Assembly (NCBI GenBank): GCA_020049115.1
Contig: JAIFLK010000009.1
Coordinates: 1-40,855 of the forward strand
Source of the DNA: Chloroflexota bacterium
Lineage (GTDB): Bacteria > Chloroflexota > Anaerolineae > 4572-78 > J111
DNA: 40,855 nt
Direction of reading: 5' to 3'
The notes beneath the pieces were generated by a model. It did no database searches and was not told the origin of the DNA. It was given only the letters and a program-made list of their open reading frames with translations. This document shows positions 3,398 through 15,175 of the stretch, piece after piece; the first letter of the stretch is position 1, and the number at the start of each line of letters is the position of its first letter. The translations under genes and the position numbers were made by a program.

Positions 3398-4837
3398 ATG
3401 AATGAAGTTACATTACAACAAAAACTAACGACTTTAACTAATTATCCCCACTTATCGGCTGAAACAGTAACCCGTTTTGGCGAAATATTACGCTCATTAG
3501 GTGATTGGGATTTGAGGCAACTGAACCCCTTAACCTTTGCTGACTACTATGGTTTTGAACGGTCAGAATTGATTGACCTGTGTATTCATGGGGTTAAAGT
3601 GGGCCTATTTGATTTTGTGTGGAACATGATTTGTCCCCATTGTGGTGGCGTAGAATATAGTTTTGGCTCGGTCAATGACTTCACGGGCAGCCACTTTTTA
3701 TGCACCTTATGTCGAGTCAACGCGCCGAGCAATTTAGATGACCAGGTGGAAGTGGCCTTTGTCATTAATCCAAGTATCAAAAAATTACAAATTAATCCCT
3801 TTGCCGATGTTGAAAGTTATTTACGCTATTTCTTTTCCGCCAATTTAGTGCGCTCCGAGCCGCATCAAGCCTATTTCATCCAATCCATTCGTTATTTTCA
3901 ATCTATTCAGCCTGATGCCGAAATTGAAATGTCCTTTGAATTGACTGATAGCCACCTCTTGCGGTTAATTACTTTAACCTTGCATCATACCGTAACATTT
4001 TTGCCATCAGGCGCGCCGACCCAAGAACCGCAATTTGTGACGGTAGATTTACTGCCAACGGGTTTTTCTACCACCAGTGTTTCATTATCCCCTGGCCCCG
4101 TAATAGTCAAAGTGCGAAACTTGCGCTTTTCTCCCGTTGATATTATGTTGAGTGAATTAGATTTAGCCGAAATGCATGATATTGTAAGAAAATACCCCGC
4201 CACATGGCTGCCCATGTTCACGGGTAAAATGTTATTAAACACCCAAAGTTTCCGCGACCTCTTCCAAATGCAGAACCTCAAAGCTGACCTCAAACTTAAC
4301 ATTCGTAGTTTAACGTTATTATTTACCGACTTAAAAGGCTCAACTGATTTATATGATAGCACTGGTGATGCCTTTGCTTACAATTTAATTCAAGAGCATT
4401 TCCAAATTTTAAGCGAAGCAGTTCATCATAATTCGGGCGCGATTGTTAAGACCATGGGCGACGCAGTCATGGCAACTTTTTCCTCGCCGAGAGAGGGGAT
4501 TCAAGCGGCCACTGAAATGATGCAAGGGATTCAAGCCTTTAACCATCGGATTAAATCTGACGGCCATGCCTTGGGGCTAAAAATTGGGGTGCATGAGGGC
4601 GCAGCCTTAGTGGTGAATGCCAATGACCGCCTTGATTATTTTGGGCAAACAGTCAATGTTGCGGCGCGGGTGCAAGGTTTAGCCAAAGCCGATGAAATTT
4701 GGGTCACACAACCCGTTTTCCAGTCCGACCAAGTCAACCAAATCTTACAGCAAGCGGGCTATCAATCTGAGGAACATTCCGTGGCCTTAAAAGGCGTGAG
4801 CCAAGCCGCCACCGTTTATCGGCTGCACCAAATTTAA
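3398..4837 (+). CDS. Adenylate cyclase with DUF5939-like N-terminal domain
   Basis: The 479-residue protein likely makes cAMP from ATP. The C-terminal class III cyclase domain (about 303-478) has metal Asp311 (FTDLKGST) and Asp355 (KTMGDAVMATF), adenine-selecting Lys351 and an Asp in RLDYFGQ, and transition-state Asn420 and Arg424 (VNVAAR), so all catalytic residues are present. The N-terminal half resembles the DUF5939 region seen in some bacterial cyclases and holds a zinc ribbon, C79-x2-C82 and C102-x2-C105. No membrane segment is seen, so it is cytoplasmic. ATG 3398 is preferred for the GGAG 9 bases before it. The longer frame from 3338 would overlap dus. What activates it is unknown. Confidence 0.9.
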   Translation: MNEVTLQQKLTTLTNYPHLSAETVTRFGEILRSLGDWDLRQLNPLTFADYYGFERSELIDLCIHGVKVGLFDFVWNMICPHCGGVEYSFGSVNDFTGSHFLCTLCRVNAPSNLDDQVEVAFVINPSIKKLQINPFADVESYLRYFFSANLVRSEPHQAYFIQSIRYFQSIQPDAEIEMSFELTDSHLLRLITLTLHHTVTFLPSGAPTQEPQFVTVDLLPTGFSTTSVSLSPGPVIVKVRNLRFSPVDIMLSELDLAEMHDIVRKYPATWLPMFTGKMLLNTQSFRDLFQMQNLKADLKLNIRSLTLLFTDLKGSTDLYDSTGDAFAYNLIQEHFQILSEAVHHNSGAIVKTMGDAVMATFSSPREGIQAATEMMQGIQAFNHRIKSDGHALGLKIGVHEGAALVVNANDRLDYFGQTVNVAARVQGLAKADEIWVTQPVFQSDQVNQILQQAGYQSEEHSVALKGVSQAATVYRLHQI

Positions 4838-4852
4838 TAATTTGTGATTTTA

Positions 4853-4885
4853 AGACCTGCAAGGTTCCCAAAACCTTGTAGGTCT
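4853..4885. repeat. Simple hairpin repeat (family F, AGACCTGCAAGGTT form)
   Basis: AGACCTGCAAGGTT and AACCTTGTAGGTCT pair around CCCAA. Related hairpins with changed but still pairing arms are at 10017, 10667, 25132, 25180 and 33961. There is no T-run after it, so it is not a classic terminator. Confidence 0.75.
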
Positions 4886-4913
4886 ATTAGCAAAAGTCTC
4901 CCTGAACCCCTCC

Positions 4914-6389
4914 ATGCGCCTGAAAACCCTTACCCCCAACCTGCTCCTCATTTTACTCGCCCTTATCACCACCGCGTTATATGGCTTTATGTTTTCTATT
5001 CCCTTTCCCCTTGACCGTTTTTATAACACCATTCCGCCCGTTGATTACGCTAAACTTACGCACCGTTCCCTTAACGGGTCGCTCATTTATTTTCTGGGAA
5101 TAACCGCCACTTTCGGCCTTTATCTCGGCGCGCTCAAAGTGGTTTGGCCTAAAAAAATAATCTCTCCCTGGGTCATTGGACTTACAGCGGCCATGTTGGT
5201 CAGCAGCCTTATTTTATCCTATCCCGTCACCGCCATTGATATATTTGTTTATGCCCTGCACTCGCGCGCTTGGGCGTTATATGGCCTTAATCCTCTCGCC
5301 TCGCCCTCCAACATGATGCCCGACACTGACCCCTGGCGCGGCCTCGCGGGGGAGTGGGGTAAAGTGGCTGCGCCTTATGGTACGGTCTGGGAGGGGCTGT
5401 CCTTGCTTACGTTTTATATCAGTGGCGGCGGATTTTTGAGCCAACTTCTGGCCTTAAAAGGGCTGGTCATTACGGCTTATTTTGGCTGCCTCTGGCTGAT
5501 TTATCTCATTTTGCAACGTCATCAACCCGATTGGGTGGCCGTTGGCATGGTCGCTTTCGCTTGGAATCCGTTGGTTTTATTGGAAACCGCCCAAAATGGA
5601 CACAATGACCTCGTAATGAGTTTCTTTTTATTACTAGCTGTCTACACCAGTTATCTGGCCGATAAATCCAACCGCCGCCGATTTATCTGGCTCACTTGTA
5701 TCGCCTTAGCCCTCTCCATTTTGGTCAAATTCATCACCTTATTAGTTGTCCCATTTTTCCTTTTCAGCCTCACCCATCGAGTGCGCTCTAAAATGGTTCG
5801 CTTAGGCAATATGTTAGGTTATGGCAGTGTCATAATCCTTATTGTTATTATTGCCCTAGCCCCAATATGGCCTGGTTGGGCAAATTGGGCAGTTTTGCGG
5901 CCAAGTGGACAAGGCGGTTACTCCTTGATAGGGGTGTTGGTTTTGAGCCTGAAAGTTGCCTTTGGAGGCAATCAACCGTTTGATGTGACTCGTTGGTTAA
6001 TCAACCCTCTTTTTATCGTCATTTACCTTTATCAACTAGCCCGCGCCCTCAAACCCAACCCTGCGCCCTGGTTATTAACCATAACGTTATCTTTCCAAAC
6101 GTTATTTTGGTATGTATTACTGGTCATCCCGATATTTCATGCCTGGTATTTACTCTGGTTTTTACCGTTAATGCCCTTATTATTGCCCCACTCGGCTTCA
6201 TTGAAAGCAACCGTTATTTTTTCCTTCACCGCAACGTTAGTTATTCCTTTTTTTGAGGCATGGCGGGCCTGGTTTCCTGATATATTTAGTAGTTATTTAT
6301 TATTAATTCGTCTCATCGCGCTCTTTTGCCTCATTGGGCTACCCGCCCTGGCTTTAATTCGCCGAGGCCGTCAATATGAGCTAAAATAA
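4914..6389 (+). CDS. GT-C membrane glycosyltransferase, MptA/MptB or GT87-like
   Basis: This 491-residue integral membrane protein has about 11-13 hydrophobic helices, and no signal other than the first helix. Family marks are the acidic loop motif DIFVYALHSRAWALYGLNP (about 110-128), the following Trp/Pro-rich loop ending in PYGTVWEGLS, and WNPLVLLETAQNGHNDLVM. Together these are typical of polyprenol-phosphate-sugar dependent GT-C enzymes that add sugars on the outer face of the membrane. Acceptor and sugar cannot be told. It stands alone between two repeats, so no operon partner is evident. ATG 4914 precedes the first transmembrane helix directly. Confidence 0.8.
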   Translation: MRLKTLTPNLLLILLALITTALYGFMFSIPFPLDRFYNTIPPVDYAKLTHRSLNGSLIYFLGITATFGLYLGALKVVWPKKIISPWVIGLTAAMLVSSLILSYPVTAIDIFVYALHSRAWALYGLNPLASPSNMMPDTDPWRGLAGEWGKVAAPYGTVWEGLSLLTFYISGGGFLSQLLALKGLVITAYFGCLWLIYLILQRHQPDWVAVGMVAFAWNPLVLLETAQNGHNDLVMSFFLLLAVYTSYLADKSNRRRFIWLTCIALALSILVKFITLLVVPFFLFSLTHRVRSKMVRLGNMLGYGSVIILIVIIALAPIWPGWANWAVLRPSGQGGYSLIGVLVLSLKVAFGGNQPFDVTRWLINPLFIVIYLYQLARALKPNPAPWLLTITLSFQTLFWYVLLVIPIFHAWYLLWFLPLMPLLLPHSASLKATVIFSFTATLVIPFFEAWRAWFPDIFSSYLLLIRLIALFCLIGLPALALIRRGRQYELK

Positions 6390-6529: not shown

Positions 6530-7200
6530 ATGATGAAAACAATTGCTGTAATTGGTGGTACAGGGAATGAAGGGCCAGGCTTGGCGCGGTTATGGGCTAA
6601 GTCGGGACAATATAAAGTGATTCTTGGCTCACGTCAAGCCGATAAAGCGGTGCGCGTAGCCAATGAATTGAATGAACAATTAGGAGCTAATTTGCTAGAA
6701 GGCATGGCAAATGAAGACGCGGCGCAGGCGGCGGAGATTTGCATTTTGACCGTGCCTTATAGCGCGCAAGGGGCAACCTTAACGGGCTTGAAAGATTTAC
6801 TGCAAGGCAAAATATTAATAGATGTGACAGTTCCGCTTAAGCCGCCCAAAGTGTCAACGGTCAATGTTCCCGCAGGTGGCTCGGCGGGGCAAGAGGCGCA
6901 GGCCATTTTGGGTGAGGGCGTGCGGGTCGTGGCGTGCGGGTCGTCTCCGCTTTCCAAAATGTTAGCGCGACCCATTTAGCGGAGGGGCATGACCATATTG
7001 AGTGTGACGTTTTGGTTTGTGGCGATGATAAAGCGGCCAAAGCCGAAGCCATTGCCCTAGCCGAAGCGGCGGGCATGCGCGGGATTGACGCGGGGCCATT
7101 GCAAAATGCGGTGGTGGTGGAGGGGCTAACCTCGTTGCTCATTGGTATCAATATCCGCCATAAAGTGAAAGGTGCGGGGATTAAAATTACGGGGATTTAA
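6530..7200 (+). pseudogene. npdG: F420:NADPH oxidoreductase (NpdG/Fno), frameshifted by a 14-bp duplication
   Basis: The enzyme passes hydride between NADPH and coenzyme F420. The N-terminal part has the dinucleotide-binding opening MMKTIAVIGGTGNEGPGLAR. The family core follows: GSRQADKA, ILTVPYSAQ, ILIDVTVPLKPPK. At 6917-6944 the 14-bp unit GGCGTGCGGGTCGT occurs twice. Past it the frame ends at 6979, and the rest of the protein (SAFQNVSATHLAEGHDHIECD to the end, 7200) lies in another frame. Removing one unit gives a continuous 218-residue protein, the normal family length. The gene is thus either newly broken or misassembled. It lies upstream of cofE on the same strand, consistent with an F420 gene block. 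Confidence 0.9.
6917..6944 (+). repeat. 14-bp perfect tandem duplication causing a frameshift
   Basis: GGCGTGCGGGTCGT is present at 6917-6930 and again at 6931-6944. Because 14 is not a multiple of three, the second unit shifts the npdG frame; deleting either copy restores it. Confidence 0.97.
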
Positions 7201-8080: not shown

Positions 8081-8203
8081 TAGTGGATTGTTTATTTAAT
8101 TTCTAGCATATCCGAACAGACAAGAATGTCTGTTCTACCGTTGGTAGGTAGGTCGGACATTCTTGTCTGACCATGTACTAAAAACTAAATGAACAGTCCA
8201 GTA
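8081..8203. mobile_element. MITE-like element, family C, with TA ends
   Basis: Inverted ends of about 25-30 bp (TGGATTGTTTATTTAATTTC on the left, complement of TAAAAACTAAATGAACAGTC on the right) are bounded by TA on both sides, as in IS630/mariner-type insertions. The core is GAACAGACAAGAATGTCTGT, then TACCGTTGGTAGG, then the inverse ACATTCTTGTCTGACC. The same core appears at 12350, 15019 and 23229. It carries no ORF. Confidence 0.8.
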
Positions 8204-8222
8204 GAACAGGTTTAAACCAGTT

Positions 8223-8693
8223 CTACTGATATGGTAAATCTTGTGGCCTGCGCTCTGCTCGTACTGTAAAGCCAGGGAAATTGAGTAAATCTTTCACAAA
8301 ATTCATATCAAGGCTTAATACATATTTACGCTCAGAAAGTAATACAACGGGAATGTGGTCGCGGTCTTCTTGATTACAAGTTAAATTTTTGACCACTTTG
8401 GCCTTAAAGTGTTCACGTTTAAATGCCTTAATTTCCTCATTACTAACTTTAATCAGCCGCCCCTCGCGGGTCATTTGATTGATAATAACCGTAATGTTGA
8501 TGGCAGAATGAGCCGTACCTGCGGTGCGTTGATATTCCGCAATCAATTTGTTAGAAACCACCAAATACGCATTTCGATGGGTTTCAGTTGGATTAAAGCG
8601 CATGAGCCAGGCAATCAGCCGTTTATACTCGGTATCCAATGGATTGACAAAATTTTTAGTGATGTTATTATCAATGAAAATATCTTTACGCAT
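8223..8693 (-). CDS. PIN-domain-like nuclease, partner of the upstream ATPase
   Basis: The 156-residue protein fits a PIN fold by its acidic residues: Asp8 in DIFIDNNI, Glu53 in LIAEYQR, Asp110/Asp112 in NQEDRDHIPV and Asp129 in YVLSLDMNF. PIN proteins are metal-dependent RNases, often toxins. ATG 8693 is used; its start overlaps the last codons and stop of the ATPase gene by 8 bases, so the pair is probably translationally coupled. A longer frame to TTG 8717 would run deeper into the ATPase gene. No small antitoxin-type gene is beside it, so the ATPase is the likely regulator. The fold assignment rests on motif reading only. Confidence 0.7.
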   Translation of the reverse strand: MRKDIFIDNNITKNFVNPLDTEYKRLIAWLMRFNPTETHRNAYLVVSNKLIAEYQRTAGTAHSAINITVIINQMTREGRLIKVSNEEIKAFKREHFKAKVVKNLTCNQEDRDHIPVVLLSERKYVLSLDMNFVKDLLNFPGFTVRAERRPQDLPYQ

Positions 8694-9915
8694 TGAGGGC
8701 AATGTCCATGGTGTCAAGCATGTAAGTGTCGAAGAAGCCTGGTGGGGCGTTCAAAATTTGCCCATCTTTGGTAAACTCAAGTTGGTGGGTTATCGTGCCG
8801 TCAGGTGAAGGCTCAAAGTAATAAATCGCCATATCATTGGGTTCAATCTCACCCTGCACAATCCGTAAGCGAATCCGATGCAACAAATATTCACTGTGCG
8901 TTTCCACCACATATTGTTTCTCAGTAGTTTTAATTTGTTTAATGAAATAATCGCCCAATGAGGCTTGGATACTAGGGTGTAAATGGATTTCAGGTTGGGC
9001 TAATAGTAATAATGAGTCATCTGTAAGTTGTAAATCAGCCACAACAATGGGTAAAAACTGACTAATTCCAAAGCCTACATCGGTTAAAGATGCCCATACA
9101 CTTTTAGAGTTAGTTTTAACACTTAATTCAAATCGCCCACCCCGTAGCTGTCGTGATTTGATAGTATTGACTAGCCCTAACTCTTTGAGAATTTTTTTGA
9201 GTTGGTGAAATTTGTTGGATTTTTGACTTTCCCATTCAATAATTTGGTCTATGTAATCTTCTCCATTTATGCCAATGTAACCACTCACATGGGTCTTGCG
9301 ATAGTAGGTTCTTTCGGGAGGATGTCGGAATGGCCCAATGAAGTTCATTTCGGGATTAAGGTATAAATCCGCAAATTGACCTTCTAGATTTAGTATTACT
9401 ATTCTAGGTATGTTTTTTGTAATGTTTATAATAGCTGCTTCGATATTTTCTACATTGTTAGTTGCCACATTATAAAGATATTCTTTTGTGTTTTCTGGTA
9501 GCTTTTCATCGTATAAACTTATGATATGACCATCATAATATTTAGCCTCATAGGTTAGAATATTGTTTTCTAATATTGAATGATTGAGTTTTGAAACAAT
9601 ATGGCTTGTAGGAATAACCCAACTGGTACTAATAACATTTTCTTGTCTGTATAAGTTTACATGTATTTCAATACCTATCTCGCTTTTTTTATCATGCTTA
9701 AATGCCATTTCCTCAAAATCACCCAAATTAACATATTTCCCATTGGGTGATAAATAGAACGGAAATCCTTGTGACTGAAATGGCAATAATATGCCATAAA
9801 TCAGTGAACTTTTGCCGCTACTGTTTGCGCCCGTCAGCAAGGTTAATGGGGCGAGTTTAATGTCTACTTCACGAAAACATTTGAAATTTTTCAAGGCAAT
9901 ACGATTGATTAACAT
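8686..9915 (-). CDS. AAA/ABC-type ATPase with DUF3696-like C-terminus
   Basis: This 409-residue ATPase has the SMC/RecF/OLD-like layout. It has Walker A GANSSGKS (29-36), a Q-loop region with PFRHPPERTYY (195-205), a signature-like DVGFGISQF (279-287), Walker B with Glu309 (LLLLAQPEIHLHP), an H-loop VETHSEYLL (His340), and an ending NDMAIYYFEPSPDGTI...PPGFFD typical of DUF3696. No nuclease (TOPRIM) domain is fused; the PIN gene follows instead. The start has AAAGGA 9 bases upstream. Bases 9361-9420 are only about 28% G+C, well below the neighbours, which suggests horizontal arrival. ATPase plus separate nuclease recalls defence systems such as Septu and PARIS, but this pairing is not one I can name. 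Confidence 0.85.
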   Translation of the reverse strand: MLINRIALKNFKCFREVDIKLAPLTLLTGANSSGKSSLIYGILLPFQSQGFPFYLSPNGKYVNLGDFEEMAFKHDKKSEIGIEIHVNLYRQENVISTSWVIPTSHIVSKLNHSILENNILTYEAKYYDGHIISLYDEKLPENTKEYLYNVATNNVENIEAAIINITKNIPRIVILNLEGQFADLYLNPEMNFIGPFRHPPERTYYRKTHVSGYIGINGEDYIDQIIEWESQKSNKFHQLKKILKELGLVNTIKSRQLRGGRFELSVKTNSKSVWASLTDVGFGISQFLPIVVADLQLTDDSLLLLAQPEIHLHPSIQASLGDYFIKQIKTTEKQYVVETHSEYLLHRIRLRIVQGEIEPNDMAIYYFEPSPDGTITHQLEFTKDGQILNAPPGFFDTYMLDTMDIALNA

Positions 9916-9933: not shown

Positions 9934-9986
9934 GAGTCAGTCGGTCAGCAGGTCAGCTTATCAGCCAATTTTAGCTGAGGAGCTAA
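9934..9986. repeat. GTCAGC-rich palindromic repeat, partial copy
   Basis: GTCAGTCGGTCAGCAGGTCA, TTATCAGCC and TTAGCTGAGGAGCTAA resemble the longer palindrome at 31750-31849. The copy lies just upstream of the ATPase gene start and forms the right border of the ATPase-PIN cassette. Confidence 0.55.
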
Positions 9987-10016: not shown

Positions 10017-10049
10017 AGCCTTTATAAGGTTCAGAACCTTATAAAGGCT
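10017..10049. repeat. Hairpin repeat, family F (AGCCTTTATAAGGTTC form)
   Basis: AGCCTTTATAAGGTTC pairs with GAACCTTATAAAGGCT across A. A nearly identical copy is at 33961-33993. It lies 10 bases before the nitroreductase start codon and could hide or present its translation start. Confidence 0.8.
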
Positions 10050-14890: not shown

Positions 14891-15175
14891 GTTTAGGATT
14901 TACACCAAAACCTCACCCCAGCCCTCTCCTATTTAGGAGAGGGCGTAAAATCTCCCCCCGATGTCGGGGGGATTAAGGGGGGTAGTACACTGTTCATTTA
15001 GTTTTTGGTATATGGTCAGACAGGAATGTCTGACCTACCAATGGTAGAACAGACATTCCTGTCTGTTCGGATGACAGGAATGTCTGACCTACCAATGGTA
15101 GAACAGACATTCCTGTCTGTTCGGATATACTAAAAATTAAGTGAACAATCCAGTAGTTTTGGTATTTACGTGAGC
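14891..15175. mobile_element. Family-B repeat interrupted by a family-C MITE
   Basis: The 307-base gap between two minus-strand genes holds only repeats. A family-B element (GGATTTACACCAAAACCTCA on the left, TTTTGGTATTTACG on the right) contains a family-C element at 14986-15155 with TA at both ends, so C arrived after B. Within C the 54-bp core is doubled (15019-15072, 15073-15126). No promoter is evident. Confidence 0.8.
15019..15126. repeat. 54-bp tandem duplication of the MITE core
   Basis: Two identical 54-bp units, each holding GACAGGAATGTCTGACCTAC and the inverse AACAGACATTCCTGTCTGTT, stand in tandem inside the family-C element. Confidence 0.95.

Follow-up and report, generated by a model that had tools for sequence, protein, structure and literature searches.

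Layout and origin of the locus

The question raised by this locus is what two genes, read on the minus strand in the midst of plus-strand genes related to coenzyme F420, might do for their host, and whether they form a defence or toxin system, as had been proposed from the sequence. The window, i.e., the whole stretch of 40,855 nucleotides that was analysed (contig JAIFLK010000009.1 of the Chloroflexota assembly GCA_020049115.1), carries npdG and cofE on one side of the pair and an FbiB-C-terminal-like nitroreductase gene on the other. Between them lie a gene for a 409-aa ABC-type ATPase (8686–9915), assigned by Pfam to AAA_15/AAA_21 with a C-terminal DUF3696, and a gene for a 156-aa protein (8223–8693) placed by AlphaFold2, Foldseek and its homologues in a new PIN subfamily. 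No extra genes separate this cassette from its F420-related neighbours in the window. The start codon of the small protein (ATG, 8691–8693) falls within the ATPase gene, so that the two ORFs overlap by 8 bases (8686–8693), which suggests coupled translation; the junction is overlapping or near-overlapping in most homologues. The sequence-only reading of this DNA had described the same two ORFs, their overlap and their antiparallel orientation to the F420 genes on both sides, and the positions found here agree with it. As a separate observation, npdG (NADPH-dependent F420 reductase, 6530–7200) is split into overlapping frames at 6530–6979 and 6934–7200, apparently by a frameshift or an error in sequencing.

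The cassette is a horizontally acquired insertion of approximately 2 kb in the npdG-cofE-nitroreductase cluster. Relatives of the organism keep this gene order without the cassette, uninterrupted in several of them, and the gap between cofE and the nitroreductase gene, 1.98 kb in the window, measures 8 to ∼70 bp in four loci (L094, L096, L098 and L106) and is longer in others. The small protein is absent from the other 399 sampled genomes of the phylum, and the kin of the pair are found in Bacteroidota and Desulfobacterales. The G+C content of the insert is 28–43%, compared with 50–57% in the coding flanks. A MITE borders the cassette (8081–8210), as had been noted before, though about 40 further copies occur in the same genome and it is therefore not specific to the cassette; tandem copies of the same family also lie at 14989–15146. 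The palindrome previously placed at 9934–9986 was not recovered, none of the inverted repeats found in that interval reaching 12 nt. The nearest strong inverted repeat is at 10017–10049, where two perfectly matching 16-nt arms enclose a 1-nt loop, in the stretch that separates the start of the ATPase from the nitroreductase gene.

A complete ATPase without a nuclease domain

Pfam matches to the ATPase were AAA_15 (1.7e-24), AAA_21 and DUF3696 (PF12476, 9.3e-11; residues 357–404, 8704–8847). Four motifs of an ABC-type ATPase are complete on the minus strand, and invariant or nearly so in the alignment of 15 homologues: Walker A (GANSSGKSS, residues 29–37, 9805–9831), a signature-like motif with nearly all positions invariant (DVGFGISQFLP, residues 279–289, 9049–9081), the Walker B/D-loop region with an invariant QPEIHLHP (residues 307–314, 8974–9012) and the H-loop region (VETHSE, residues 337–342, 8890–8907). 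Pfam detected no nuclease domain, the C-terminal part being DUF3696 only, and both points accord with what had been read from the sequence. Among PADLOC models, the best match was NsnB of the Menshen system (3e-64, residues 3–403), followed by HEC-03B (7e-53) and PDC-M55A (2.8e-47); the NsnB and HEC-03B models each match 15/15 members of this ATPase clade. The predicted structure resembles the heads of Rad50, SMC and PtuA, and is weak in the middle of the protein (pLDDT <50 at residues 125–140 and 142–187).

The partner is a PIN-fold protein of a new subfamily

The small protein gave nothing significant against Pfam, NCBIfam, PADLOC or PDB sequences, in single-sequence or profile searches, which made fold prediction necessary for its identification. 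Its AlphaFold2 model (16 input sequences) reached a pLDDT of 89.9 and a pTM of 0.85, and the folds that Foldseek ranked highest in the PDB belong to toxins of the VapC and FitB types (best 3zvk, E 3.7e-4, probability 1.00). The predicted fold is thus that of a PIN protein. The four acidic residues expected of a PIN active site also appear to be present, all of them invariant in 16 PIN homologues: Asp8 in motif I (D-N-N-I, 8670–8672), Glu53 in motif II (8535–8537), Asp110 in motif III (8364–8366) and Asp129 in motif IV (8307–8309), on the minus strand. The suspicion of PIN-like acidic residues, Asp8 and Asp129 among them, is hence upheld by conservation, and structure prediction, named in advance as a way to refute it, returned a PIN/VapC fold.

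In profile comparisons, the class to which this protein belongs was linked (92%, E 5e-7) to a different class of PIN-like partners, and its likeness to HEC-03A-type PINs was weak (E 0.024, probability 2%). It is a subfamily of its own, beyond current defence databases. Searches for relatives of the small protein in plasmids and phages gave no match; in IMG/VR none were found for the PIN, and the ATPase gave short N-terminal matches only.

Conservation of the pair

A scan of genome contigs with the ATPase gave 13 loci. At five of them, all from Cytophagales (L035–L039), the gene directly downstream encodes a protein homologous to the small one. The pair was then surveyed in 222 genomes of the family of Runella limosa, which we take to be Spirosomataceae. 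The PIN occurs in 16 of these genomes, the clade ATPase in 16 and both in 15, the exceptions being a genome in which the PIN is a fragment (G523) and one in which the end of the contig cuts off the ATPase (G608). Wherever the PIN locus is intact (15/15), the order is ATPase to PIN, directly adjacent. Conserved co-occurrence, on which the earlier proposal depended, is accordingly observed, and the more distant DUF3696 ATPases of the phylum scan are mostly followed by PIN-type genes of other kinds.

Decayed cassettes were also seen. At L034 the ATPase is intact and the PIN is reduced to its first nine residues (MRKDIFIDD), while at L075 (8531–9605) and L117 a broken ATPase frame stands beside an intact PIN frame, with sequencing error possible; several of the surveyed genomes are draft MAGs. 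In a Desulfobacterales MAG (L041, 4938–5339), a clade ATPase is truncated to its first ∼111 residues.

The homologous cassettes sit among housekeeping genes rather than in obvious defence islands. Eight of those in Spirosomataceae (L036, L039, L069, L070, L072, L073, L074 and L075) are divergent to the glycyl-tRNA synthetase gene, with a variable other flank, and the remainder are located elsewhere; this pattern suggests a preferred site or a linkage inherited from an ancestor. The Runella cassette (L036) has immediately upstream (4267–4993) a VapBC-like pair, judged by eye, with a second, different PIN-like gene.

Relationship to known systems

The pairing of ATPase and PIN had been described as one that could not be named. 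There is in fact a precedent in the PADLOC candidate HEC-03, although the PIN subfamily itself is new. HEC stands for ‘Hma-embedded candidate’, and some HECs are reported to be protective in PMC12988326, which cites a preprint (Payne et al. 2024, doi 10.1101/2024.01.29.577857). HEC-03 likewise combines a DUF3696 ATPase with a small PIN-type gene directly adjoining it on the same strand, and its relatives share the hypervariable ATPase middle described below. However, the window PIN has no HEC-03A match in PADLOC at E ≤ 1, and forms a separate subfamily with its own ATPase clade. Eight partners of distant ATPases were tested: six match HEC-03A (1e-15 to 1e-41), and the other two gave no match. 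Two deep-branching DUF3696 ATPases (L022 and L031) are followed by yet another PIN-like class, whose members start VDASVARSAGE.

Septu and PARIS had been suggested as the nearest in logic, but the closest named model of the ATPase is NsnB of Menshen (NsnA-NsnB-NsnC), whose middle is hypervariable too. The window differs from Menshen in that it lacks NsnA (DUF262) and has a PIN gene in the effector position, with no match to NsnC, unlike the partners at L043–L046; NsnC follows the ATPases of some other relatives, with matches of 3e-43 to 8e-89. The organism's own genome also encodes, on another contig (C234, L077, 6796–9916), NsnA (PADLOC, 4e-143), an NsnB-like ATPase and a third gene of 267 codons with no PADLOC match. 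PARIS (AriA/AriB), Septu (PtuA/PtuB) and retron-PtuAB share with the window an SMC/OLD-like ATPase, PtuA-like in our model, and a separate effector nuclease; their effectors are of the Toprim or HNH type, in contrast to PIN, and in PADLOC the scores of AriA and PtuA fall far short of that of NsnB. Unlike OLD and Gabija, the ATPase has no C-terminal Toprim but DUF3696 instead. VapBC and FitAB have the same fold and layout of acidic motifs as the window PIN, but VapC models do not match it at the sequence level, and its partner is a 409-aa ATPase rather than a small DNA-binding antitoxin of the VapB type. The archaeal OLD protein Cran1 (PMC12796447) was considered as a precedent and rejected, as its nuclease domain is part of the protein itself and the neighbouring gene encodes a membrane protein rather than a PIN. 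A search of the open-access literature for DUF3696 found nothing relevant.

When a tree of the ATPases was computed with the middle region left out, most partner classes occupied ATPase clades of their own; the deep order is not resolved, and one member is out of place (L020, a weak NsnC match). We therefore regard the window pair as a new lineage within an already known kind of candidate system.

The ATPase middle is hypervariable and is exchanged among homologues

The AT-rich middle of the ATPase gene, noted earlier for its composition only, is the most informative feature of the locus. Its low G+C content was confirmed (28% at 9400–9699, against 50–57% in the coding flanks), and a middle of lower G+C is found in 29/31 family members (Wilcoxon p 9e-10 against the C half, a generous value given that the members are related). 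From comparison of homologues, the hypervariable module spans residues ∼69–190 (9346–9711, minus strand), with low model confidence at 125–187.

Pairs of close homologues bring this variability out. L035 and L038 share 91% identity in the N half, 94% in the C half and 94% in the PIN, but 32% in the middle (shuffled null 23%); L037 and L066 share 100%, 88% and 84%, but 35% in the middle (shuffled null 25%). The middles of both pairs are too diverged for the age of the pair, which is set by the halves and the PIN. As 94%-identical PINs accompany unrelated middles, the middle is not the docking surface of the PIN. The pattern recurs in relatives, both of the HEC-03 type (L008/L009: N 93%, C 96%, PIN 88%, middle 29–30%) and among Menshen NsnB proteins (L044/L045: N 97%, C 75%, NsnC 54%, middle 35%). 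Between L008 and L009, dS is 0.35 in the N half, 0.29 in the C half and 0.40 in the PIN, compared with a dN of 0.69 and a dS of 1.1 in the middle. Conversely, the middles of L005 and L009 are 92% identical (dN 0.037, dS 0.30, dN/dS about 0.12), which indicates that the middle is constrained within an allele.

Middles fall into two length classes, of 52–57 and 89–186 residues. In Spirosomataceae the short middle accompanies PINs of three different classes, and PINs that are closely related carry middles of either length; both observations agree with the identity contrasts in pointing towards module replacement by recombination. This was followed at one orthologous HEC-03 locus with two alleles in four congeneric genomes (L115–L118), syntenic over up to 14 kb. 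Informative sites for the topologies (115,116)(117,118), (115,117)(116,118) and (115,118)(116,117) were distributed 115:9:7 in the upstream sequence, 2:100:2 within the middle module and 18:4:6 across the PIN. The topology switches sharply on the N side, between positions 6006 and 6033 of L115, whereas the C-side border is diffuse (11:11:10 near the C half). The replaced segment measures ∼0.35–0.45 kb.

Sequence comparisons of homologues of the window copy thus indicate that the middle is a module exchanged by recombination, the quartet evidence coming from HEC-03-type relatives and that for the window's own clade from the identity contrasts; no close relative of the window copy's own middle was found. 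Antigen sensors diversified by diversity-generating retroelements (DGR; PMC10907252) are likewise conflict systems with a diversified recognition part, but they change by error-prone reverse transcription; this type of diversification was not supported here, where whole segments are replaced.

The middle lies between the half of the ATPase that carries Walker A and the half that carries the signature and Walker B. SMC and Rad50 relatives have a coiled coil inserted between those same halves.

Proposed function and alternatives

We put at roughly 0.6 the probability that the cassette is a horizontally acquired two-gene conflict module, most likely anti-phage, in which a swappable ATPase sensor triggers a PIN ribonuclease. 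The DUF3696 ABC-type ATPase would act as sensor and switch, with its exchangeable middle module recognising a cue specific to the invader. Recognition would bring about an ATP-dependent rearrangement of the ATPase, probably in physical complex with the adjacent PIN ribonuclease, which would thereby be activated to cut host RNA (tRNA, rRNA or mRNA), and growth would stop before the phage matures. Of the earlier proposal of a candidate defence or toxin cassette, the conserved pair and the PIN fold now stand on firmer ground; the defence role stays a candidate one.

A plain toxin-antitoxin or stress module, in which the ATPase restrains a VapC-like PIN toxin with no dedicated phage sensing, seems quite unlikely to us. 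The proximity of the PIN fold to VapC and FitB, the overlapping genes and the retention of the ATPase where the PIN has been lost (L034) are what such a module would show. There is no VapB-like antitoxin, however, and a constitutively toxic PIN would forbid the intact PIN frames beside broken ATPases at L075 and L117, if these are not sequencing errors. Since either gene can be found broken beside an intact partner, the idea of a free toxin under the control of an antitoxin is hard to fit, and it would leave both the exchange of modules and the kinship to defence systems in PADLOC unexplained.

Two further explanations concern the middle only. It might diversify as a target of phage-encoded inhibitors, or for the distinction of self from non-self DNA, rather than for recognition of a trigger. 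This predicts the same pattern of swapped alleles, each constrained within itself, and is weakly disfavoured by the two length classes, which are easier to reconcile with a variably sized binding module than with an escape surface; we consider it unlikely, if worth keeping in mind. That the middle is an unconstrained, fast-drifting linker is highly improbable. Its low pLDDT, variable length and low G+C content would be in keeping with drift, but the L005/L009 middles have stayed 92% identical at a flank divergence similar to that of L008/L009, and the sharp N-side border and the 100 of 104 informative middle sites that back a different topology already contradict a linker at the HEC-03 locus.

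Implications for DUF3696 immune ATPases

If the sensor reading of the cassette holds, its meaning would reach beyond this organism. We see even odds that the DUF3696 immune ATPases (HEC-03, Menshen and the new PIN clade) share a recombining module for antigen recognition, swappable and placed at the arm position of the ABC ATPase, which would set which invader triggers interchangeable effectors (at least three PIN subfamilies and NsnC). We found no report of the triggers of these ATPases in the open-access literature, and no prior account there of the variability of the middle module, of which an earlier description elsewhere is possible. Defence databases gain an effector subfamily that they currently do not recognise. 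L035 and L038 differ almost only in the middle, making trigger specificity testable by module swaps and the mapping of phage escape. Natural recombination by itself locates the element that probably serves for recognition in these immune ATPases, a class that is widespread.
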